Below are positions 38,507 through 62,737 of a stretch of DNA of 64,000 nucleotides, piece after piece. The notes under the pieces were generated by a model. That model saw nothing but the letters and a program-made list of their open reading frames with translations, did no database searches and was not told the origin of the DNA. Made by a program: the position numbers and the translations under genes. The number at the start of each line of letters is the position of its first letter. Position 1 is the first letter of the stretch. The DNA is taken from contig NC_019703.1 in NCBI RefSeq assembly GCF_000317045.1, forward strand, positions 608,501 through 672,500, given 5' to 3'. Source of the DNA: Geitlerinema sp. PCC 7407 (lineage in GTDB: Bacteria; Cyanobacteriota; Cyanobacteriia; PCC-7407).

Positions 38507-40810
38507 ATGGCAAATTCCACCCTCGGTATTGCCACTCCCGCCTCTCCAAGTCGGCGATCGCTGAGTTTGCCCGCTTGGCTAGTTTTGGTGTGTGTCATTA
38601 CCTTCACCGTCCTGATCGGGGCGGGAGCGGCCATCTGGAAAAATGCGCCCCCCATCCCCGCCACCGTCCAGTCGTCCCAGCAAGAAATCGTGCTGCGGGC
38701 CGAGGATATCGAGCGGGGCCAAGTGACCTACCTGGGGCGGGGCGGCCAGCACATTGGCAGCATTTGGGGCCACGGCAGCTATCTCGCGCCTGACTGGACC
38801 GCTGACGTCCTGCACCGCTGGGGCCTGGCCACCGCCGGAGTTCTCTACGCCAACGATACTCACTTTTCCCAGGCCGACCTCGAGGCGCTGCCCGCACCGG
38901 AGCGCGCCAAGCTCCAGGCCGAAGTGAGCCAAGAATTTAAGATCAACCGCTATGACGCCAACACTCGAGCCCTGACGCTGACCGCCGCCCAAACGCGCGG
39001 TCTTCAGCAGGTCTTTGAGGATTATCAAGTGCTTTTGGCCCACGGGTCGCGAATTCACTCGATTCCCGATGGCTGGTTTACCGACAACCAGCAAATCCAC
39101 GACGTGACCGCCTTTTTTAGCTGGACAGCCTGGGCCGCCGCCGCCAATCGGCCCAACGCGCCTTTTTCCTATACGGCCAACTGGCCCCACGATGACCTGA
39201 TCGGCAATCAGCCGCCGGGGCAGTTTTTGGTGTGGTCCATTGTGTCGGTGATTGTCCTCATTGCGGCGATCGCCCTTTTCCTGTTCGTTTACCTAGAGCA
39301 AGAAAGCAGCGACGAAGTGCAGACGGTTCCTCTGCAGCCCGCCCTGCGCCTGGCTACCCCCAGCCAAAAGGTTTCGAGCCTGTTTTTTGGGGTGGCGATG
39401 GCGCTGTTTTTGGTCCAGATCATCATGGGCATGGTGACGGCCCACTACGCTGTGGAGGGCGACAGCTTCTACGGCGTCCCGATCCAGCAGTTCATGCCCT
39501 ACGCTGCTTCGCGCACCTGGCACTTGCAGCTGGCGGTGTTTTGGATTGCGACCTGCTGGCTGGCGGCGGGGCTCTACTTCGGGCCGCGCTTTGGCAAGCA
39601 GGAGCCCAAGGGCCAAGCCTGGGGCAATGGCGGCCTGCTGATTGCTCTAACAGTGGTAGTGGTAGGCTCCCTGATCGGCTCCTGGGCTAGCGTCCAGGGC
39701 TTTTTGACGGGAGACGCTAGCTTCCTGTTTGGCCACCAGGGCTATGAGTATGTCGAGCTGGGTCGCCTGTGGCAGGTGCTGCTGATCGGCGGCATGGTGT
39801 TTTGGCTGTGGCTGATGTACCGGGCGCTGCAGCCGGCCCTCAAGACCGACGGCAACCGCACGGGCCTAAACCATTTCTTTCTCTACAGCGCGATCACGAT
39901 TCCGCTCTTTTATGCGGCGGGGCTGATGTACACCAATCACACTCACCTGAGCGTGGCGGAGTATTGGCGCTGGTGGGTGGTGCACCTGTGGGTGGAGGGC
40001 TTCTTTGAGGTCTTCGCGACGGTGACGATCGCCTACTTGTGCAGCGAGCTGGGCTTCCTCAAGAAGTCCTCGGCCCTGCGAGCGACCTATCTCACGGCGA
40101 TTTTGTACCTTGGTAGCGGTGTGATTGGCACGCTGCACCACCTGTATTTTGCCGGGACGCCCTCCTTTATTGCGGCTATGGGCGCGGTGGCGTCAGCCCT
40201 GGAGGTGGTGCCCCTGACGCTGATTGGCTTTGAGGTGGTGAAGACGCTGCGCCTGTCCCAGGAAGCCGAGGGCTTCTATCGCTGGCCCCTGCGCTTCTTC
40301 TTGGCGACCTGCTTCTGGAATCTGGTAGGTGCTGGGGTGTTTGGCTTTTTGATCAACCCGCCCATCGTTTTGTACTACTCCCAGGGCCTCAATACGACGC
40401 CCATTCACGCCCACTCGGCTCTGTTTGGGGTGTATGGCTCTCTGGCCCTGGCGCTGATGCTGTTTGCGCTGCGGGAGATCGTGCCGGAGCGGGCCTGGAA
40501 TGAGAAGCTCTTGCGCTTTTCTTTCTGGAGCCTGAATGGCGGCCTGGTGATCATGATGGTCTTTGGCCTGATCCCCAATGGCTTCTATCAGCTGGTGCAG
40601 TCGGTCAATCACGGGACGTGGTACGCCCGCAGTGCGGAGGTGGTGGGCAGCCCGTGGATGCAGTGGACGGTGTGGCTGCGCATTCCGGGGGATATTGTGT
40701 TCTCTCTGGGGGCGATCGCCATTGTGCTGTTCACGGTGCAGGCGATCGCGGCCTTGCTGCGACAGCCGACCCAGACCGAACCCAAGACTATGACTTCCAG
40801 TAAGGTCTAA
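38507..40810 (+). CDS. norB: Quinol-dependent nitric oxide reductase (qNOR)
   Basis: 767 residues, about 14 membrane helices, the single-subunit quinol-type NO reductase (NorZ) that reduces 2 NO to N2O. The N-terminal helix and the periplasmic cytochrome-c-like domain without a haem-binding CxxCH (residues about 60-235) are the qNOR extension. The catalytic part has haem and metal ligands: the His in RTWHLQLAVFW, WVVHLWVEGFFEVFATV (His plus the non-haem-iron Glu), GTLHHLYFAGTP (the HH pair) and TTPIHAHSALFGVYG. In cyanobacteria such as Synechocystis the enzyme protects against NO or links to nitrate metabolism. It ends the four-gene cluster. Confidence 0.96.
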   Translation: MANSTLGIATPASPSRRSLSLPAWLVLVCVITFTVLIGAGAAIWKNAPPIPATVQSSQQEIVLRAEDIERGQVTYLGRGGQHIGSIWGHGSYLAPDWTADVLHRWGLATAGVLYANDTHFSQADLEALPAPERAKLQAEVSQEFKINRYDANTRALTLTAAQTRGLQQVFEDYQVLLAHGSRIHSIPDGWFTDNQQIHDVTAFFSWTAWAAAANRPNAPFSYTANWPHDDLIGNQPPGQFLVWSIVSVIVLIAAIALFLFVYLEQESSDEVQTVPLQPALRLATPSQKVSSLFFGVAMALFLVQIIMGMVTAHYAVEGDSFYGVPIQQFMPYAASRTWHLQLAVFWIATCWLAAGLYFGPRFGKQEPKGQAWGNGGLLIALTVVVVGSLIGSWASVQGFLTGDASFLFGHQGYEYVELGRLWQVLLIGGMVFWLWLMYRALQPALKTDGNRTGLNHFFLYSAITIPLFYAAGLMYTNHTHLSVAEYWRWWVVHLWVEGFFEVFATVTIAYLCSELGFLKKSSALRATYLTAILYLGSGVIGTLHHLYFAGTPSFIAAMGAVASALEVVPLTLIGFEVVKTLRLSQEAEGFYRWPLRFFLATCFWNLVGAGVFGFLINPPIVLYYSQGLNTTPIHAHSALFGVYGSLALALMLFALREIVPERAWNEKLLRFSFWSLNGGLVIMMVFGLIPNGFYQLVQSVNHGTWYARSAEVVGSPWMQWTVWLRIPGDIVFSLGAIAIVLFTVQAIAALLRQPTQTEPKTMTSSKV

Positions 40811-40904: not shown

Positions 40905-41606
40905 TCAGGGCTCGAGGTCTCCCCGGGCGATCGCCTCCAGCACCGCCAAGTCCAAAATCTGGATCTTGCCGCCCCGCTGGTAGCGCACCACGGCCTGGAG
41001 GCGCTTGATCAGGCGGACGCACTCTTCGTAGGTGATGCCGATGCTGCGGGCGATCTGGTAGTAGGGCCGGCGATCGCCCAGGAACCCCCCATTCGCCTGG
41101 AGCTGCGCCCCCTCTTCGAGGGCCGCATAGTGCAGGAGCCGCGCCAAACGGACGATCGCCCGCTCCGACACCAGGCCGTGGACCGTTTCGTGGAGCTGCT
41201 GTAGCCGCTGATTGAACACCGTCATCATCCGCAGCGCCACCTCGGGCTTTTGCTGAATCACGGCCAGCAGGGCTTCGCGGCTCACCGTCAGCACGCTACA
41301 GTCCGTCAGCGCGAGCACCGTCGCCGGGGCGATCCCGTCCCCAAACAGGGCCGGAGCCGCAAAGATTTCGCCCGCTCCCAGCAACCGCAGAATGGTCTCT
41401 TTGCCGGTGGTGGCCAGTTTGGTGATCTGCACGGTGCCCTCGGCGATCGCGTACAGGCAGCTCGGCAGGCGATCGCCCTCCTGCATCACGCGATCGCCCG
41501 CTTCGTAGCGCCACAGCTTCGTCTGAGCCTGGAGCGCCTCCAGTTCCGTCTCCTCCAAAGCAGCAAAAATTTGCACACTTTGCAGCTGCTCAATGGTTGC
41601 AAACAT
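40905..41606 (-). CDS. Crp/Fnr family regulator convergent with qNOR
   Basis: 233 residues with a cNMP-type beta-roll (LWRYEAGDRVMQEGDRLPSC, ILRLLGAGEIFAAPALFGDG), a long dimerisation helix (REALLAVIQQKPEVALRMMT) and a winged helix from about 150. The recognition helix is ITYEECVRLIKRL, which keeps the Glu and Arg that contact the TTGA/TGTGA half-site. The effector pocket lacks the RS pair used for cAMP, and there is no N-terminal Cys cluster as in FNR, so it is not a plain CRP or FNR. A DNR-like NO sensor is a possibility. The start at 41606 is the ATG MFATIEQLQ. It is the natural candidate to act on the box at 36462. Confidence 0.9.
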   Translation of the reverse strand: MFATIEQLQSVQIFAALEETELEALQAQTKLWRYEAGDRVMQEGDRLPSCLYAIAEGTVQITKLATTGKETILRLLGAGEIFAAPALFGDGIAPATVLALTDCSVLTVSREALLAVIQQKPEVALRMMTVFNQRLQQLHETVHGLVSERAIVRLARLLHYAALEEGAQLQANGGFLGDRRPYYQIARSIGITYEECVRLIKRLQAVVRYQRGGKIQILDLAVLEAIARGDLEP

Positions 41607-42090
41607 AGCCGCTCGCCAGCCAACCTCCTCACCATACCGCCCTGGGGCGAGACGCACTGCCTCCCAGCCAGCCTAGAGCCCCCATTGCGCCTTTGGAGAC
41701 CCTCAGCTTTGCCCAAAAGTACGCTTGCCAAGATTTAGGGTTTTGGCGTAAATCTCAAGGTCTAGTGGCAGGAAAGCCCTTCAGTTTTCAGGTTTTTTCC
41801 TTGGGCGATCGCGAAAATTTGGCATTCTGCGACTTTCTCAGGGAATTCTAAGAGCAATCTTCAACGTCTGCGTCTCTGAGGCGCTCCTGTTTGCGTGAGC
41901 GCTGTGTCCTAGCGGATTCCTGGGCTGGAGGGTGATAGCAGCTGCCAAAGCCTTGAGGTCGTGGCCCTCGAAGGGCGATCGCCCAGATTCAGCCCTAGAG
42001 CAGCACCTTGGCACCTGTCCTCCCATCCACCCATACAGACACCCTTGGTATTTATCCATTTCAGCGATGACACCTCCAAGGAAGTTCTAC

Positions 42091-42354: not shown

Positions 42355-43053
42355 TTAATAAGCCCCGTCTTTTTTCAGCACAACCTGGAAAGTCTTGAAC
42401 AGCAGCTTGAGGTCGTAGGTCACCGACCACTTGCGCTGATAGTCCAAGTCCATCTGCACAATATCTTCAAAATCCTTGACCGATGAGCGGCCATTCACCT
42501 GCCACTCGCCCGTGATACCGGGCTTCACATCGAGGCGCTGCCAGTGATAGCCGTCGTAGCGCATCACCTCATCCACCGTCGGCGGTCGCGTCCCCACCAG
42601 GCTCATATCTCCCATCAAGACATTCCAAAACTGGGGCAGCTCATCCAGGCTTGTCCGCCGCAGAAATCGACCGACTCGGGTCACTCGCGGGTCGTTCTGG
42701 TTTTTGAAGACGAGCCCTTTGGCCTCATTTTGAACCAGGTGCTTGAGGTCATCGGCATTGGCCACCATGGAGCGAAACTTCCAGATGCGGAAGGGCCGAC
42801 CTTTGAGGCCGCAGCGCTCCTGGCCGAAGAAGATGGGGCCTGGATTGTCGAGGTAAATGGCGATCGCCACGGGCACCGCTACCACCGCCGTAATCGCCAA
42901 ACCGGCGATCGCCCCCAGCACATCAATCAGCCGCTTGGCTCGGCTCCGTGCCGACGGATGGGCAGTCTGCAAATGTTGATCCGGTGACGTCAAGGCAGCC
43001 GGAGTCAAGGAGAGATCAGAACCAGGCGGGAGAGAACGAGAAGTCGTAATCAC
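42355..43053 (-). CDS. Sugar transferase (polyprenyl glycosylphosphotransferase)
   Basis: 232 residues, the catalytic half of the WbaP/RfbP-like family. It starts with a disordered Ser/Pro-rich stretch (about 1-35), then a membrane-associated helix ([20 protein letters not shown]), and the conserved core: [48 protein letters not shown] and the TRPPT segment. It moves a sugar phosphate from UDP-sugar to the undecaprenyl carrier, the first step in exopolysaccharide or O-antigen assembly. The long N-terminal four-helix domain of WbaP is missing, so it is of the short monotopic type. No other polysaccharide genes lie beside it. Confidence 0.92.
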
Positions 43054-43538: not shown

Positions 43539-46500
43539 CTAGCGCCCTCGCGGAACCGTCAAATTTGCTGTCAGTGGGTCTTCCAGCTTCTGGACAGAGG
43601 CGACTAGGAGCGTCTCAAGGTACTGCTGGAGCTGGCGGCACTGCTCGAGGCTGGGCCGGTAGCCCTGGCTGTCTTTTTCAAACAGCGGCGCGGTGGCCAG
43701 AGACGCCAAATCGGGGTGCTGGGCGGACGCCGTGGCGAGGGGCTCTAGGCCCTCCGTCGGCACCAGACCGAGGGGCAAGTTGCCTTCTAGCAGGGACAAA
43801 ATGCGGTTTTGGCAGGCCTGGGTATTGATGCCCTGGCGCTCCAAAAGCTGCAAGATGCTGCCGACGGAAAAAGACTGCTGGGGCACGACGCGCAGCAGCT
43901 CTCGCAGCAGGAAGTAGTCGCTGTACTGCTGACGCATGCCGTTGAGCACCTGGGGATGGAGGGGCACCGCGGCTAGGCCGTAGGCAACGCGGCTGCAGGG
44001 CGGGAAGGGCTCGCTGGCGTAGGTGTCCTGGATGATGGTGGCGTTGGGGAGTTTTTGCTGGAGCCAGCGGGCGATCGCCGGAATGGTGGCCGTTCCTCCG
44101 GTGCAGACTGCTTGGTTGACCGCCTGCACCGCAATGCCGGTCCGGCTCAGCAGCGCATTTAGCTCCCGGTTGAGGCGCTGAATATAGGGCAAAAACACCA
44201 GCTTTTCTAGGTCGCGCCGCAGCACCACCCACTGCTGATTGCCCAGCTCGAAGGTAAAGCGGTCTTGGTGACGCAGGATGAGCTTGAGGTGCTGGGCCAC
44301 GTCCAGAAGCGCCTGGCCCAGAGAGGAGCCCTTGAGGCGCTGGCTCAGGTGCTGGCGCGCGATGGGGTCCGGATCGCCAGGAATGGGCAGATCAAGATCG
44401 TTGAGGTTGAGACTCTCCCAGGGCAGGGGCTCCGTCGCGGGGAAGGTTGACTGCCAATCCCAGTCGGGCAGCAGCGCTAGGGCGCCTTCGGCTGGAGCGT
44501 CCGGCGTGTGGGGCTGTCTGGCCCACTCCGGCAGCAGCAGCTGACAGACGATGTCCTGGTCTAGGAGCGTGCCGGCTCCCGGAAAGCTGCGGCAAGTAAA
44601 GTCCTGGTGGGCCAGGGGCTGGCCGTTGCTGGGCAGGGTGATCAGGGCCATTTCGGTGGTGGCAGCGCCCGCGTCGATGACCAGGGTCGCGCCCCGCCAG
44701 TCGGTGTTGAAGAGGGTGCGTTTTTGGGAGGGAATGCCCGGAATGCTCAGGGCCTGCTCGAGGGTGCCTCGCAGGCCGGACAGGACCGTGGCGATCGCGT
44801 CTTCAACGAAGAAAACGCGGGCTGGGTGAGCCACCAAACCCGCCTGGAGAATTGCCTCGCGCACGTTGAAGGCGTAGGTGTCCGAGGCGCTGGCCGAGTC
44901 GCCGACGATGATGCCATCGAGGTGGGCGATCGCCGTCTGGAAGCGATCGGGGTCTAGGCCCACCGCCACGCAGCGATCGCCCGGCTGGGTCAGGGTCGCC
45001 AGCAGGTCTTGGAGCGATCGCCGCACCCACACCAGCGGCAGCGTCTGCTCACTCGACCATTGCAGCACCGGCTCCCAGGTCGCCGTACTGGCGTAGAAGG
45101 GCACCCCCACCGACAGCAGCGGCTTGAGACCCTGGAGCAGGGAGCCCTGAAGCGCCGACTCCCGCAGGGAGGCCAAAGCCGCCGTCGCCACTACCAAGGG
45201 ACTGGTCAAGGGATTCTGGTGCTCGGGCTGCTGATCCTCTAGAAAGGCGATCGCAGGCAGGCGGAAGCAGGGAGCCGTCACCTCGGGCTCATCTGCGTTG
45301 CGCGGCTCATACCAATAAATCGGGTACAGCTCCCCGGTGGGACGATGGAGCAGCACCGCAGACAGCCCCGTCGTTCCGATGTCTAGGCCCAGGTACCACG
45401 TGTGCTGGCTTTCGAGATCTGGCGGCGCTGCTGGCACCGGCAGCATCGGCGCTTGAGGCGTCTGGGCCTCAACTAAATTTTTTTTTTCGCTCGAATCTGA
45501 GTCGAGCAGGATCGTCTCGTCTTCCCCAAAACCCCCGAAGGCGTCCTCCAGGATAAAGCTCTCTGCTGAATCGAGCTCGGGGACCGGATTTGCCTCACTG
45601 GACTCCCCAAACACCGGCGGCAGGTCGCCAAACAGCGTGTCCAGGTTTTCGAGGGTGAGGGCGTTGGCTTCGCTTGCCGTCTCCTCTGGCGCTGCTGCAA
45701 AGGTGCCAAACAAATCGCTGCCCAGCAGGCGTGAGGCGGTTGTCGTCTCCTCAGACGGTTCTGGGGGCAGCGGCTCTTCGGCTGCTGGGGCCACCTCGGG
45801 AGTCTCTGCACTCTCCCCAAACCCTGTGAATAGGTCTCCCTCTAGAACGCTTGGCGCTTCAGACCCCAAGAAAAGATCCTCATCTAGCAGGGGCTCGGTC
45901 GATTCCAGGAGGTCAGCCTCAGAGACTGTCTCAATGCTCTCCGGGACTTCTGGCAGCCCATCATCCGTCGGCACGTCTAGCGTCGGAACTTCTAGGGGAG
46001 CAGGCTCTACGAACCCCGTAAACAGATCTTCGAGCACCTCCAGGGACGCTGGTGGCTCTGGAGGCTCCCCGTCGGTTTCTGGGAACGGGTCTAGCAGATC
46101 CGGCACCTCGATGGCCATGGGTTCCACATCAATATCTGGTTCTGGAAGCAGCTCTTCTTCGAGGCCCCAGTCCATCAGATCTTCGAGCAGGGGCTCCGAG
46201 GGGGCAGGTCCGGGGGCTGCCTTCTCCGGTGGAGCCGGGGGTAGGTCTGCCAGGCTCATGCCGGTCTCATCGAGGTCCAGCAGGCCTGCTTCGAGCTGTG
46301 CCTCCCCTTCGAGGGACTCTAGGCTAGAGAGATCTGCATCCAGCTGCAGCAGCACATCCTCGTCGATCTGGATTTCGGGGCTGCGGCCTTCTCGCAGATC
46401 AGCTTCGGAGATGAGGAGGTTTTCGGTGGGAGCAGCGGGAATATAGTCTTCTTCGCTGCTCTCAGGGCTGGGAGCGGCGGGGCTGCCTTCCCACGGGGTT

Positions 46501-48545
46501 TCGTCGATCAGCTCACCCAGGGTGGCCACTGCGTCGATGGCCTCTTCTGGCGGCGTCGCCTCCGCAGCGGGCTCTAGCAGCTCTAAACCGTCAGCGATCG
46601 GGGGCGTGGAGGCGCGGGCGGACTGGGACGGCGTCAGTTCTTCGCCAAACAAAAAGGCATCTAGGGTCGGGGAGGCGATCGCCTCTTCCTCGATGGGCGG
46701 CGGGCTCGACGGCTCTTCTGGAACCTCGAAGCCCTCAAAAAGGACCTCTTCGACCGAGGACGCGATCGCCGCTCGATCGTCCGTTAGGGCGCTGGCCGCC
46801 AAGATTTCGGACTGCTCGGGCAGCGTCACCTCCGGCAGCGTCGACTCGCCGGGGAAGGCGATCGCCTCTGGCGCACTCGTCGGCTCATCCAGAGCCGTCA
46901 GCTCAGTCTGGCCAAAGAGGCTCTGATAAAACTCGTCTAGCTCCTCGTACTGGCTCGTCAGGTCCTCGGGCGGCACCTCTTCCGCGGCTGCGGGCGTCTC
47001 CGGAACCTGTGGGCTCGCTGGCGCCTCGGGGGCCGCCAACTCCGCCGCAGGCGACGGCGTCTCCTCCCAGTCAAGGGGCTCCGGGGCAAAGGGCTCTTGC
47101 AGCTCGCCGCTCAGGCGCTCTAGCAGCTCCAAAGCCGAGTCTAGGTTGACGTCTGTCTCTTCCTCCGGCAGCAGCGGCTCGATCACCGTTGCGTCATCCG
47201 CTGGTGCGCTCCAATCCAGCGCATTTTGCTCAAACTCATCCACCTGATACAGCGGCGACTCGAAGGCAGCGGACTCCAGCGGCAAAATCGGCTCGCTCTC
47301 GAGGTCAACCGCTTCGATCGCAGCGCTGAGGCCGCCGTCGTCACCAAGGCCCACGGGCTCTGCCACCTCAATCGGAGGGGCGATCGCCTCAGACTCTTCT
47401 CCCAGCAGCAAGTTCGCCAGCAGATTTTCTGCGGCCTCCGGTGACATCTGGCCCAGCTCTTGGGTCAGCTCCGTTCCGGGATAGGGGAACCCGACCCCGA
47501 GGCCCGCGGGCGGCTCCTCGGTTTCCTCCTCATCCAGCAGGTCGAGCAGGGGCTCATTGGGCGAAAAGGGCTGCTCCGCCTCAGTGCCCAGCGGCCCCAG
47601 TAGGCTCCCCACCGACAGCGACGGCGGACCCGATTCCTCTAGGCTGGGCATCTGGAGCGATGCCTGAAAGTACGAGGACGCTTCTTGGCCCAGGCGCTGG
47701 GCCAAGTGGTTGATCAAGGCCGTGAACATCACTTCTCCCTGCTGGCCCAGACCGTGCATCCGATCGAGGCCTTGGCTGAGGGAGTCCTGGTAGGCCTGGA
47801 GATTGCGCTGAATCGCCTCGAAAACCACGCTGATGGTCGAGTCTAGGCTCATCAGGAGCTGGTCGGACTGGACCTGGAGCGATCGCAGCTGCTCGAGACG
47901 CTGGGCCGGCTCGAGAGGCAGGGCTCCCCCTTCGAGGCCCTCGACCGGTAGCCCGCTCCCGTAGCGGAAGGACTGCTGCTCAAGATTGGCAATGGACTGG
48001 CTGACCTGCTGCGCCAAGCTCTCCTGTACCCGGCCCATCAAGGACTGCAAGAAATCGTTGATCAGCTGCTGCTGATTGATCTGCTGCTGCGCCAGGGAGT
48101 AGGTTTGGCGCTGAGACTCCAGCTGCTGAATGTCGCGCGCCAAGTTATCGCGCTGCTGGCGCAAAATCTCGAGGTCGGTTTGCAGGGTCTGCATCACGCC
48201 CGATCGCAGGAGGTTCATTTCCTGCACCATCGACTGCAAGACCTGCTGGGCATCGCCACTCCCAGATATCTCAGGGCGCGGCAGGGGCGCACCTTCCTCC
48301 CTCGCAGAGGTGGGGGGCTGATACTGGATATCGTGGGCGAGCAGTTGTTGCTGGGTTCTCGCCAGGTCGGAGGGATCGGCAGCCTGCTGCTGAAGCGCAA
48401 TGAGGTAGGTGCGGACACGCTCCAAAATGCGACGCTGCTGGGTCGCATCCCCGGACACCACCCAGGGCAGGCGCGGACTGGCTTTGCGGAGTGCGCCGTC
48501 AATCTCAGTGATCAGGGCTTGGATCTGGTCCTTCTGAGAAGTCAC
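43539..48545 (-). CDS. Giant coiled-coil / acidic-linker / actin-Hsp70-like ATPase protein
   Basis: 1668 residues, start GTG 48545 with AGAGG seven bases upstream. Three parts: (1) about 1-330, Gln-rich coiled coils (QQRDNLARDIQQLESQRQTY); (2) about 330-1035, a long, highly acidic, Pro/Glu/Ala/Ser-rich region with many short Leu-Asp-Leu/Leu-Phe islets and no fold; (3) about 1045-1668, an actin/Hsp70-like ATPase with phosphate-1 LGLDIGTTGLSAVLLHR, phosphate-2 LVIDAGAATTEMALITL (about 1287) and adenosine motif VCTGGTATIPAIARWLQ (about 1484). There is no Hsp70 substrate domain. I recall Hsp70-family proteins of this sort annotated in cyanobacteria, but no known function. Confidence 0.85.
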   Translation of the reverse strand: MTSQKDQIQALITEIDGALRKASPRLPWVVSGDATQQRRILERVRTYLIALQQQAADPSDLARTQQQLLAHDIQYQPPTSAREEGAPLPRPEISGSGDAQQVLQSMVQEMNLLRSGVMQTLQTDLEILRQQRDNLARDIQQLESQRQTYSLAQQQINQQQLINDFLQSLMGRVQESLAQQVSQSIANLEQQSFRYGSGLPVEGLEGGALPLEPAQRLEQLRSLQVQSDQLLMSLDSTISVVFEAIQRNLQAYQDSLSQGLDRMHGLGQQGEVMFTALINHLAQRLGQEASSYFQASLQMPSLEESGPPSLSVGSLLGPLGTEAEQPFSPNEPLLDLLDEEETEEPPAGLGVGFPYPGTELTQELGQMSPEAAENLLANLLLGEESEAIAPPIEVAEPVGLGDDGGLSAAIEAVDLESEPILPLESAAFESPLYQVDEFEQNALDWSAPADDATVIEPLLPEEETDVNLDSALELLERLSGELQEPFAPEPLDWEETPSPAAELAAPEAPASPQVPETPAAAEEVPPEDLTSQYEELDEFYQSLFGQTELTALDEPTSAPEAIAFPGESTLPEVTLPEQSEILAASALTDDRAAIASSVEEVLFEGFEVPEEPSSPPPIEEEAIASPTLDAFLFGEELTPSQSARASTPPIADGLELLEPAAEATPPEEAIDAVATLGELIDETPWEGSPAAPSPESSEEDYIPAAPTENLLISEADLREGRSPEIQIDEDVLLQLDADLSSLESLEGEAQLEAGLLDLDETGMSLADLPPAPPEKAAPGPAPSEPLLEDLMDWGLEEELLPEPDIDVEPMAIEVPDLLDPFPETDGEPPEPPASLEVLEDLFTGFVEPAPLEVPTLDVPTDDGLPEVPESIETVSEADLLESTEPLLDEDLFLGSEAPSVLEGDLFTGFGESAETPEVAPAAEEPLPPEPSEETTTASRLLGSDLFGTFAAAPEETASEANALTLENLDTLFGDLPPVFGESSEANPVPELDSAESFILEDAFGGFGEDETILLDSDSSEKKNLVEAQTPQAPMLPVPAAPPDLESQHTWYLGLDIGTTGLSAVLLHRPTGELYPIYWYEPRNADEPEVTAPCFRLPAIAFLEDQQPEHQNPLTSPLVVATAALASLRESALQGSLLQGLKPLLSVGVPFYASTATWEPVLQWSSEQTLPLVWVRRSLQDLLATLTQPGDRCVAVGLDPDRFQTAIAHLDGIIVGDSASASDTYAFNVREAILQAGLVAHPARVFFVEDAIATVLSGLRGTLEQALSIPGIPSQKRTLFNTDWRGATLVIDAGAATTEMALITLPSNGQPLAHQDFTCRSFPGAGTLLDQDIVCQLLLPEWARQPHTPDAPAEGALALLPDWDWQSTFPATEPLPWESLNLNDLDLPIPGDPDPIARQHLSQRLKGSSLGQALLDVAQHLKLILRHQDRFTFELGNQQWVVLRRDLEKLVFLPYIQRLNRELNALLSRTGIAVQAVNQAVCTGGTATIPAIARWLQQKLPNATIIQDTYASEPFPPCSRVAYGLAAVPLHPQVLNGMRQQYSDYFLLRELLRVVPQQSFSVGSILQLLERQGINTQACQNRILSLLEGNLPLGLVPTEGLEPLATASAQHPDLASLATAPLFEKDSQGYRPSLEQCRQLQQYLETLLVASVQKLEDPLTANLTVPRGR

Positions 48546-60674: not shown

Positions 60675-61451
60675 TTAGAGCTGGTCAAGCTGATTTTTCA
60701 GCGCCTCTAGCTCAGCATCCACATACCGTTGATTATCCTTCGGCGGGGTCGCAGAAGATCCAGCCGCTGGCAGTTGAGCAGCCGCTTCCGGCTCCCCGGT
60801 GAGCTGGCGCTTGAGGGAGGCGAGCTCATCATCGACATCGCTCGAGGCCTCGAGGGCCGCAAACTTGCCTTCGAGGTCAGAGGAGGCGATTTCAGCGGCG
60901 GCCTGAGAGCGCGCTTCCATTTGCAGCACCTTTTCCTCCATGCGCTCGAAGGCGGCCATGGAGCTGTTGGTGTTGAGGGAGTTGATGGTGCTCTGGAGGC
61001 GCTCGTTGGCCTTGGCCGCGCTGGCGCGAGCCTTGAGCATGTCTTTCTTGGTCTTGGCCTCAGAAATCTTGCTCTCTAGGGCAATCAGGCTGCGCTTGAG
61101 AGAGTCCACCTGGGTAGCCTGCGTGTCAAGCTGAGTCTTGAGGGTGGTCGCAGTTTCGGTGTGGGTTTTCCTGCGCACGAGGGCTTCGCGCGCCAGGTTC
61201 TCATCGCCCTTTTGCAGAGCTAGCTGTGCCCGCTGCTGCCAGTTGTTGGCTTCGGTCTGGGCCTGGTTGTGTTGCTGTTGAGTCCGCTTTTGACTGGCGA
61301 TCGCACTGGCCACGGCCTGACGGAGCTGCATCAGGTCTTCCTGCATGTCAATGATGGACTGCTCCAGCATCTTCTCCGGGTCTTCTGCCTTGCTCACCAT
61401 GTCGTTGAGGTTGGCTCGAAACACGCGGCTAACTCGATCGAATAGTCCCAT
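60675..61451 (-). CDS. vipp1: Vipp1/IM30 (PspA family) protein, copy 1
   Basis: 258 residues. It begins MGLFDRVSRVFRANLNDMVS, the amphipathic membrane-binding helix, followed by long coiled coils (QEDLMQLRQAVASAIASQKR, LIALESKISEAKTKKDMLKA, SSMAAFERMEEKVLQMEARS). A linker (PEAAAQLPAAGSSATPPK) leads to a C-terminal helix (YVDAELEALKNQLDQL). That extra helix distinguishes Vipp1 from plain PspA. Vipp1 forms ESCRT-III-like rings that maintain thylakoids and protect membranes. A second paralogue lies 368 bases upstream on the same strand. Confidence 0.92.
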   Translation of the reverse strand: MGLFDRVSRVFRANLNDMVSKAEDPEKMLEQSIIDMQEDLMQLRQAVASAIASQKRTQQQHNQAQTEANNWQQRAQLALQKGDENLAREALVRRKTHTETATTLKTQLDTQATQVDSLKRSLIALESKISEAKTKKDMLKARASAAKANERLQSTINSLNTNSSMAAFERMEEKVLQMEARSQAAAEIASSDLEGKFAALEASSDVDDELASLKRQLTGEPEAAAQLPAAGSSATPPKDNQRYVDAELEALKNQLDQL

Positions 61452-61819: not shown

Positions 61820-62578
61820 CTAAGACCCTTCGATTTGCGATCGCAGGTCTTCGAGTTCCCGGTCTACAGCGGCCTTGGTGCTCTCGGAGGCGGCGGGCAA
61901 AGAGGCGCCGCTGCCCTGACCCGACAGCATCTGCTTTTTGAGCGCTTGTAGCTCGTCCTCTACCGGAGTGCTGCTCTCGAGGGCCGCAAAGCGCTTGTCC
62001 ACATCATCGGTGCCTAGCTCTGCGATCGCCTCGGAGCGGGCCTCTAGCTGTAAGACTTTTTCCTCCATCCGCTCAAAGGCCGCCATGGAGCCAGCGGTAT
62101 TGGTGCGATCGAGCATCGAGTTGAGGCGCTCTGAGGCCTTGGCCGATCGCGCCCGGGCAATGTACAGATCTTTCTTGGTTTTCGCCTCAGAGATTTTGCT
62201 CTCTAGGGCCAGCATGTCCTTTTTGAGCTTGTCGATGACGCCTATCTGCTGGCCGAGCTGGGCCTGGAGGGAGTCCGCCGTCTGCTTGTAGGTTTGGCGC
62301 CGCGTCAGGGCCTCGCGGGCCAGGTTGTCGTCGCCCTGCTGTAGGGCGAGCTGGGCGCGGCGGTACCATTCGTCGGCGGTGGCGTTGGCCTGGGACTGCT
62401 GGCGCTCGGTGCGCTTTTGGGTGGCGATCGCCTGGGCCACCGCCTGCCGCAAGTGAATCAGATCCTCCTGCATGTCCGAGACGATCTGCTCCAGCATCTT
62501 CTCTGGATCTTCGGCTTGATTCACTAGGCTGTTGAGATTGGCGCGAATCACGCGCATGACCCGGTCAAAGAGTCCCAT
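61820..62578 (-). CDS. Vipp1/IM30 (PspA family) protein, copy 2
   Basis: 252 residues from ATG 62578 (MGLFDRVMRVIRANLNSLVN). Same architecture as copy 1: amphipathic helix, coiled coils (LIHLRQAVAQAIATQKR, LALESKISEAKTKKDLYIAR, GSMAAFERMEEKVLQLEARS), linker (SGQGSGASLPAASES) and a short C-terminal helix (VDRELEDLRSQIEGS). Both copies therefore carry the Vipp1-type tail. It could be a PspA-like partner with stress duties or a second Vipp1. The Thr-for-Lys and other changes are spread along the protein, so the duplication is old. Confidence 0.9.
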   Translation of the reverse strand: MGLFDRVMRVIRANLNSLVNQAEDPEKMLEQIVSDMQEDLIHLRQAVAQAIATQKRTERQQSQANATADEWYRRAQLALQQGDDNLAREALTRRQTYKQTADSLQAQLGQQIGVIDKLKKDMLALESKISEAKTKKDLYIARARSAKASERLNSMLDRTNTAGSMAAFERMEEKVLQLEARSEAIAELGTDDVDKRFAALESSTPVEDELQALKKQMLSGQGSGASLPAASESTKAAVDRELEDLRSQIEGS

Positions 62579-62737
62579 ACTGGAGTCTCTCCTTGCGTCG
62601 AACAATCAAGCGTTAGCAGGCGGTCAGCCGTCTAATTTCATCTGCTGAGGCCCAAAATTGGGCACGCTAATGAAACTCAGACTTTAGTCTTATCGTACCG
62701 TACCGACCTACCATGCCCCTCTGTCCCAGGGGTATCA

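Follow-up and report, generated by a model that had tools for sequence, protein, structure and literature searches.

The window, a stretch of 64,000 nucleotides from a 4.68 Mb single-contig chromosome whose host, by gene content and relatives, is a cyanobacterium, carries on its minus strand a gene for a protein of 1668 aa. This open reading frame is a real gene, and its GTG start falls on the same residue as in the relatives, M(T/A/N)SQxDQIQALIxEIDxVL. The protein consists of a head (residues 1-296), a linker (297-1049) and a nucleotide-binding domain (NBD) with a C-terminal extension (1050-1668), with the following features:

43539..48545, minus strand: fused scaffold-NBD gene, 1668 aa, GTG start
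47658..48545, minus strand: coiled-coil head, residues 1-296 (AF2 helices and conservation in the family)
47691..48278, minus strand: head segment matching the SepJ coiled coil (33% identity to L002, pairwise E 4e-22; HHalign 99.6%)
45399..47657, minus strand: acidic disordered linker, residues 297-1049 (composition, charge-hydropathy; 249-1713 aa in relatives)
46911..46940, minus strand: conserved single-copy islet A, LDEFYQSLFG, residues 536-545 (strict form in 74/85 linkers)
46002..46046, minus strand: islet B copy, SLEVLEDLFTGFVEP, residues 834-848 (pattern match)
45612..45656, minus strand: islet B copy, TLENLDTLFGDLPPV, residues 964-978 (same form in L034, TLENLDDLFGDLPAV)
43926..45398, minus strand: Hsp70/PilM-type nucleotide-binding domain, residues 1050-1540 (AF2 and Foldseek)
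45366..45392, minus strand: phosphate-1 motif LGLDIGTTG with D1055, invariant in the alignment
44643..44687, minus strand: phosphate-2 motif TLVIDAGAATTEMAL including LVIDAGAATTE, with D1291, for which most relatives have Asn or Ser
44061..44108, minus strand: adenosine motif VCTGGTATIPAIARWL including CTGGTA (motif alignment)
43542..43925, minus strand: C-terminal helical extension, residues 1541-1668, absent in L051 and L052

The 1668-aa protein is a member of a widespread cyanobacterial family that is apparently undescribed; we found no published description of it in the open-licence literature, and an earlier description elsewhere is possible. Where a genus was given, the named genera among the 80 best relatives are filamentous in growth form. 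The fused form occurs in the window, in Nostocales, in Nodosilinea and in many Leptolyngbya, and in many other relatives the head with its linker and the NBD are two adjacent genes in the same direction, head-tail first (71 fused and 14 split cases in the set of 85 linkers). An assembly or frameshift artefact was rejected as the origin of the fusion, because dozens of species show the fused reading frame uninterrupted, and as the origin of the split form, because the two-gene arrangement stands in single-contig genomes (e.g., those of L037, L041 and L044). On a quick NBD tree, fused and split states changed at least seven times, or six or five times should one or both of L126 and L073 be frameshifts from assembly; L126 resembles a frameshift within a fused gene, and L073 possibly likewise. 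By the Rosetta-stone argument, such recurrent fusion and splitting suggests that the head-tail and the NBD work together.

Reduced forms occur as well. One genus has a minimal fused form of 561-589 aa (L200:5168-6850, L202:6717-8483 and L206:4924-6687), in which a degenerate NBD follows a short head with almost nothing in between, without the acidic linker and without the islet; the phosphate-1 Asp is lost in L200, and no SepJ-like gene was seen in the genomes of L200, L202 and L206. A 401-aa form found in one genus (L201:5930-7132) has a vestigial head start, a shortened NBD and no linker. In a reduced genus of a Nostocaceae-like family, the fused gene of one genome contains an in-frame TAA inside the NBD match (L207:5797-9417), and a sister genome (L229) has kept SepJ, with no scaffold gene seen. 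A viral origin was rejected because no relative was found among viral contigs, and a role in anti-phage defence because PADLOC yielded just a weak coiled-coil match.

In most loci with enough flank, the scaffold gene is divergent from ntcA, a DUF2232-type gene and cobT, all named by resemblance. This arrangement might point to a role in regulation connected with NtcA and nitrogen status, the gene being kept beside ntcA for shared control, a reading we regard as very unlikely: the shared intergenic region of the window lacks the NtcA site GTAN8TAC, so that regulation via a shared site was rejected, the scaffold gene and ntcA are separated in several lineages, and synteny alone says little on function. 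Downstream of the scaffold gene, in the window (42355-43053, minus strand) and in many relatives, lies a gene for a bacterial sugar transferase of the exopolysaccharide priming type. The window also holds two adjoining PspA/Vipp1-like genes (60675-61451 and 61820-62605, minus strand) and a gene for a nitric-oxide-reductase-like protein (38507-40810, plus strand; NorB/NorZ type by eye) that adjoins a Crp/Fnr-type regulator (40905-41657, minus strand).

The AF2 models bore out the coiled-coil head and the Hsp70/actin-type NBD that a sequence-only reading of this DNA had proposed. The head shows long helices at 98-196 and 213-297 (mean pLDDT 75), the 128-aa C-terminal extension is mostly helical, and the NBD, modelled from a 51-sequence alignment, reached a pLDDT of 87 and a pTM of 0.91; its best PDB matches in Foldseek were the NBDs of Hsp70/DnaK (E 4e-13, prob 1.00), and FtsA, MreB and ParM were not among the best 50 matches listed. 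Against the DnaK NBD, the TM score was 0.66 by target and 0.42 by query with an rmsd of about 7, and the lobes therefore superpose loosely. Solved structures searched by sequence, single and profile, gave no match. Nothing in Pfam or NCBIfam was above cut-off for the window protein, in which PilM_2 (17.1 bits against a gathering score of 27) and HSP70 fell below it; among 51 members of the family, PilM_2 was the best Pfam match in 16 and HSP70 in 10, and the best PilM_2 E value was 0.00078. The Hsp70 substrate-binding domain, rightly described as absent, was not found in the window protein, the sub-cut-off HSP70 match covering the NBD only.

The three nucleotide-site motifs are intact in the window protein (LGLDIGTTG, LVIDAGAATTE and CTGGTA), as that reading had also stated. 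It had further made its case depend on the catalytic residues in relatives, and among the 51 nearer relatives this holds for the phosphate-1 Asp and the adenosine GG (51/51 each), with the connect-1 Glu at 48/51, but not for the phosphate-2 Asp (D1291 in the window protein), which is Asn in 31, Ser in 16 and Asp in 2; more distant members have lost further NBD motifs. The equivalent residue in Hsp70 (D199 in Hsc70) takes part in Mg-ATP hydrolysis. As the phosphate-2 Asp is mostly replaced by Asn or Ser, binding with little turnover is to be expected in most members; judged from these residues, nucleotide binding by the NBD is likely and fast hydrolysis doubtful. The proposed ATP-dependent switch is thus not weakened with respect to predicted nucleotide binding, but it is weakened as a hydrolysis switch.

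What had been described as about 700 acidic residues is a region of 753 aa in which only about one residue in four is acidic (24.7% D+E, 1.2% K+R, 13.3% P) and which the charge-hydropathy plot classes as disordered. In the 85 linkers, acidic residues make up ~22% and basic residues 3%; linker-versus-linker BLAST coverage was uninformative owing to composition. The expectation of a disordered linker with short, binding-like islets was supported by charge-hydropathy and by the enrichment of DLF and LFG, each with four copies in the window linker (0.26 and 0.21 expected, respectively) and 7-fold and 19-fold above shuffles in the 85 linkers, where the LFG count rises with linker length (r 0.76). 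The recurring DLFTGF/LFGD islets are enriched as a class, but they are not conserved in position, and islet B, likewise an enriched class, had a strict match in just 13/85 linkers.

Islet A is neither of the two examples named in that reading. It is a 10-residue motif, [VIL]DxLYxSLFG, or in extended form [DE][DE][VLI]Dx[LF]Yx[SN]LFG, present once per protein in 74/85 linkers, a count of sequences that are mutually related and not of independent events, against 0.12/85 in shuffles; with near variants it is found in 77/85 linkers, and in 5/15 of the more distant scaffold proteins. When the linkers were aligned on it, the core columns were conserved and the flanks on both sides were not. In the genome of the window, the islet A of the scaffold protein is the only match of the pattern in an acidic ORF; islet A as a genome-wide motif was rejected, the other DNA-pattern matches lying outside acidic ORFs and not exceeding the reversed-pattern control. 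Free variation in linker length together with unconserved islets had been named in that reading as an argument that would refute it: the length does vary freely, yet islet A is strictly conserved, and the argument does not reach it.

Islet A is missing in 18/100 NBD-bearing scaffold proteins, whole divergent lineages included, and in all four of the genomes that have the head but no NBD (G033, G218, G249 and G307, the first and last belonging to one genus); head-plus-tail genes without an NBD gene are L185:4740-5993, L203:3999-5297, L204:3248-5299 and L205:3959-6712. DLF islets are retained in G307 and G249 despite the absence of islet A, and L205 carries the sequence IDEHVYESLLL, which looks decayed. 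The association between islet A and the NBD has p=0.0016 by sequence and p=0.085 by lineage, and a loss of islet A along with the NBD is suggestive only. An ATP-driven scaffold or phase-separating cytoskeletal protein, in which the NBD hydrolyses ATP and the tail is multivalent through many DLF/LFG islets, would be in line with the intact motifs of the window protein, with the 7-fold and 19-fold enrichments and with the rise of LFG number with linker length (r 0.76); we consider it unlikely, because the phosphate-2 Asp is lost in 49/51 relatives, one islet only is conserved in position, and the linker is nearly absent in the minimal form.

By profile comparison, the head is homologous to the coiled coil of SepJ: HHalign gave 99.6% (E 2.3e-24), collinear over both coils, versus 0.3% for the control, a Vipp1-like coiled coil encoded elsewhere in the window. 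The genome of the window encodes one other protein with the head's coiled coil, a 602-aa EamA/DMT protein, and EamA/DMT proteins sharing it are present in nearly all scaffold-bearing genomes. We identify these paralogues with SepJ, known to consist of two coils, a linker and a permease (PMC5623728, PMC12096826), because coils, linker and membrane part, EamA (matched by Pfam in three of them), size and the MGRFEK start agree: most Nostocaceae copies measure 760-804 aa with the N-terminus MGRFEK, and their DNA start, e.g., ATGGGGCGATTTGAGAAGCGA, is identical to the published alr2338 (sepJ) primer except for one T. A search with the head profile found no third member of the coiled-coil family in most genomes.

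Head, NBD and SepJ are co-inherited, which is partly shared ancestry. In 291 genomes, tallied from the match lists using position and ORF size, with kinship left out of account, head and NBD occurred together in 62, the NBD only in 8, the head only in 4 and neither in 217, and head and SepJ occurred together in 58, the head only in 8, SepJ only in 2 and neither in 223. Within genus g43, G232 has head, NBD and SepJ, and G088 and G112 have none of them. A SepJ-like gene lies ~3-12 kb from the scaffold gene in G005, G008 and G160 (near L044, L049 and L186), nearer than chance placement suggests. These relations to SepJ bear on the possibility that the protein is an adaptor of chaperone or PilM type that has nothing to do with septa, acting for example in type IV pili or polysaccharide export, with its partner outside the operon and the head only a dimeriser. 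PilM_2 and HSP70 as best Pfam matches (16/51 and 10/51, below the gathering score in the window protein), the sugar-transferase gene often found downstream and the link of the DnaK system to both pili and polysaccharide in cyanobacteria (PMC9239167) would fit such an adaptor, but the homology of the head to SepJ and the strong SepJ co-inheritance make it improbable, and pil genes were not recognised adjoining the scaffold gene in an unsystematic scan of its neighbours.

The sequence-only reading did not include the head-SepJ relation, the split into two genes, the shared ntcA neighbourhood or the one motif kept in the linker. We tentatively favour, at somewhat less than even confidence, a SepJ-class scaffold whose NBD clamps islet A in a nucleotide-dependent manner, probably at cell septa. 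In this view cyanobacteria conserve a system of two modules, which the window protein carries fused into one chain. In the scaffold module, a SepJ-type coiled-coil head would form homo- or hetero-oligomers and be followed by the long acidic disordered tail; the NBD module would most likely bind nucleotide, with slow hydrolysis or none, and recognise islet A (LDEFYQSLFG here) on its own or a neighbouring chain, much as PilM, its nearest relative at sequence level, does with the N-terminal peptide of PilN, and the nucleotide state might open or close the scaffold. Such docking would most simply account for three observations: one motif is strictly kept in an otherwise free linker, genomes that have lost the NBD lack that motif too, and fusion has recurred; the minimal form, which has head and NBD yet almost no linker and no islet, speaks against the clamp. 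The head could also co-assemble with the SepJ coiled coil and so be placed at the membrane or septum between the cells of the filament, a location suggested by the relation to SepJ and the co-inheritance. The window protein has no EamA match in Pfam, the NBD standing in place of the permease, and no signal or membrane segment was seen in it; since a periplasmic position has been argued for the SepJ coiled coil (PMC12096826), direct co-assembly is not assured, and two coiled coils may be homologous without pairing with each other.

If the favoured reading is true, a 10-residue motif has been strictly kept while the linker around it came to differ seven-fold in length between relatives, and a domain of the Hsp70 fold has probably been turned from a chaperone engine into a nucleotide-dependent clamp. 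A more far-reaching version, which we hold to be doubtful, would see in it an unrecognised ancient component of the cell-cell junction, a cytoplasmic SepJ-class scaffold in which the NBD replacing the permease clamps the motif depending on nucleotide and so opens, closes or matures the septal complex. The role of SepJ has been called elusive (PMC12096826), and its working and its cytoplasmic partners are an open question in bacterial multicellularity for which the scaffold-NBD protein is a candidate; possibly it supplies a part still missing from the machinery by which filament cells stay joined.

Among known systems, SepJ (FraG, alr2338), a septal protein of filamentous cyanobacteria, shares with the scaffold a homologous two-part coiled coil and a subsequent linker that varies in length and sequence while its composition is kept. 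However, SepJ ends in a DME/EamA permease and the scaffold in an NBD, the scaffold has about 70-85 extra residues before the coiled coil, its linker is acidic whereas that of SepJ is rich in Pro/Ser/Thr, and islet A, found in 0/23 SepJ-like proteins, is a feature of the scaffold. SepI (Alr3364) is reported to have a coiled coil and a linker-like region but no permease and to interact with SepJ (PMC12096826); it is set apart from the scaffold by description, its locus differing by locus tag (ntcA is alr4392) and no NBD being reported. PilM, which binds ATP as well as the N-terminal end of PilN (PMC6325625), is related through PilM_2, the best sequence-level Pfam match of the NBD, and has the GAxxT form of phosphate-2 in common with it, but the score of the window protein is below gathering, the NBD has an extra C-terminal domain and is fused to a scaffold module, and its neighbours are ntcA, DUF2232, cobT and the sugar transferase, not a pilMNOPQ operon. 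The NBDs of Hsp70/DnaK are the best fold matches and share the phosphate-1, connect-1 and adenosine motifs; the scaffold differs in having no substrate-binding domain, in the mostly lost phosphate-2 Asp and in an identity of about 11-16% to the matched structures. Within the Hsp70s, Ssz1 binds ATP without hydrolysing it (PMC7083937).
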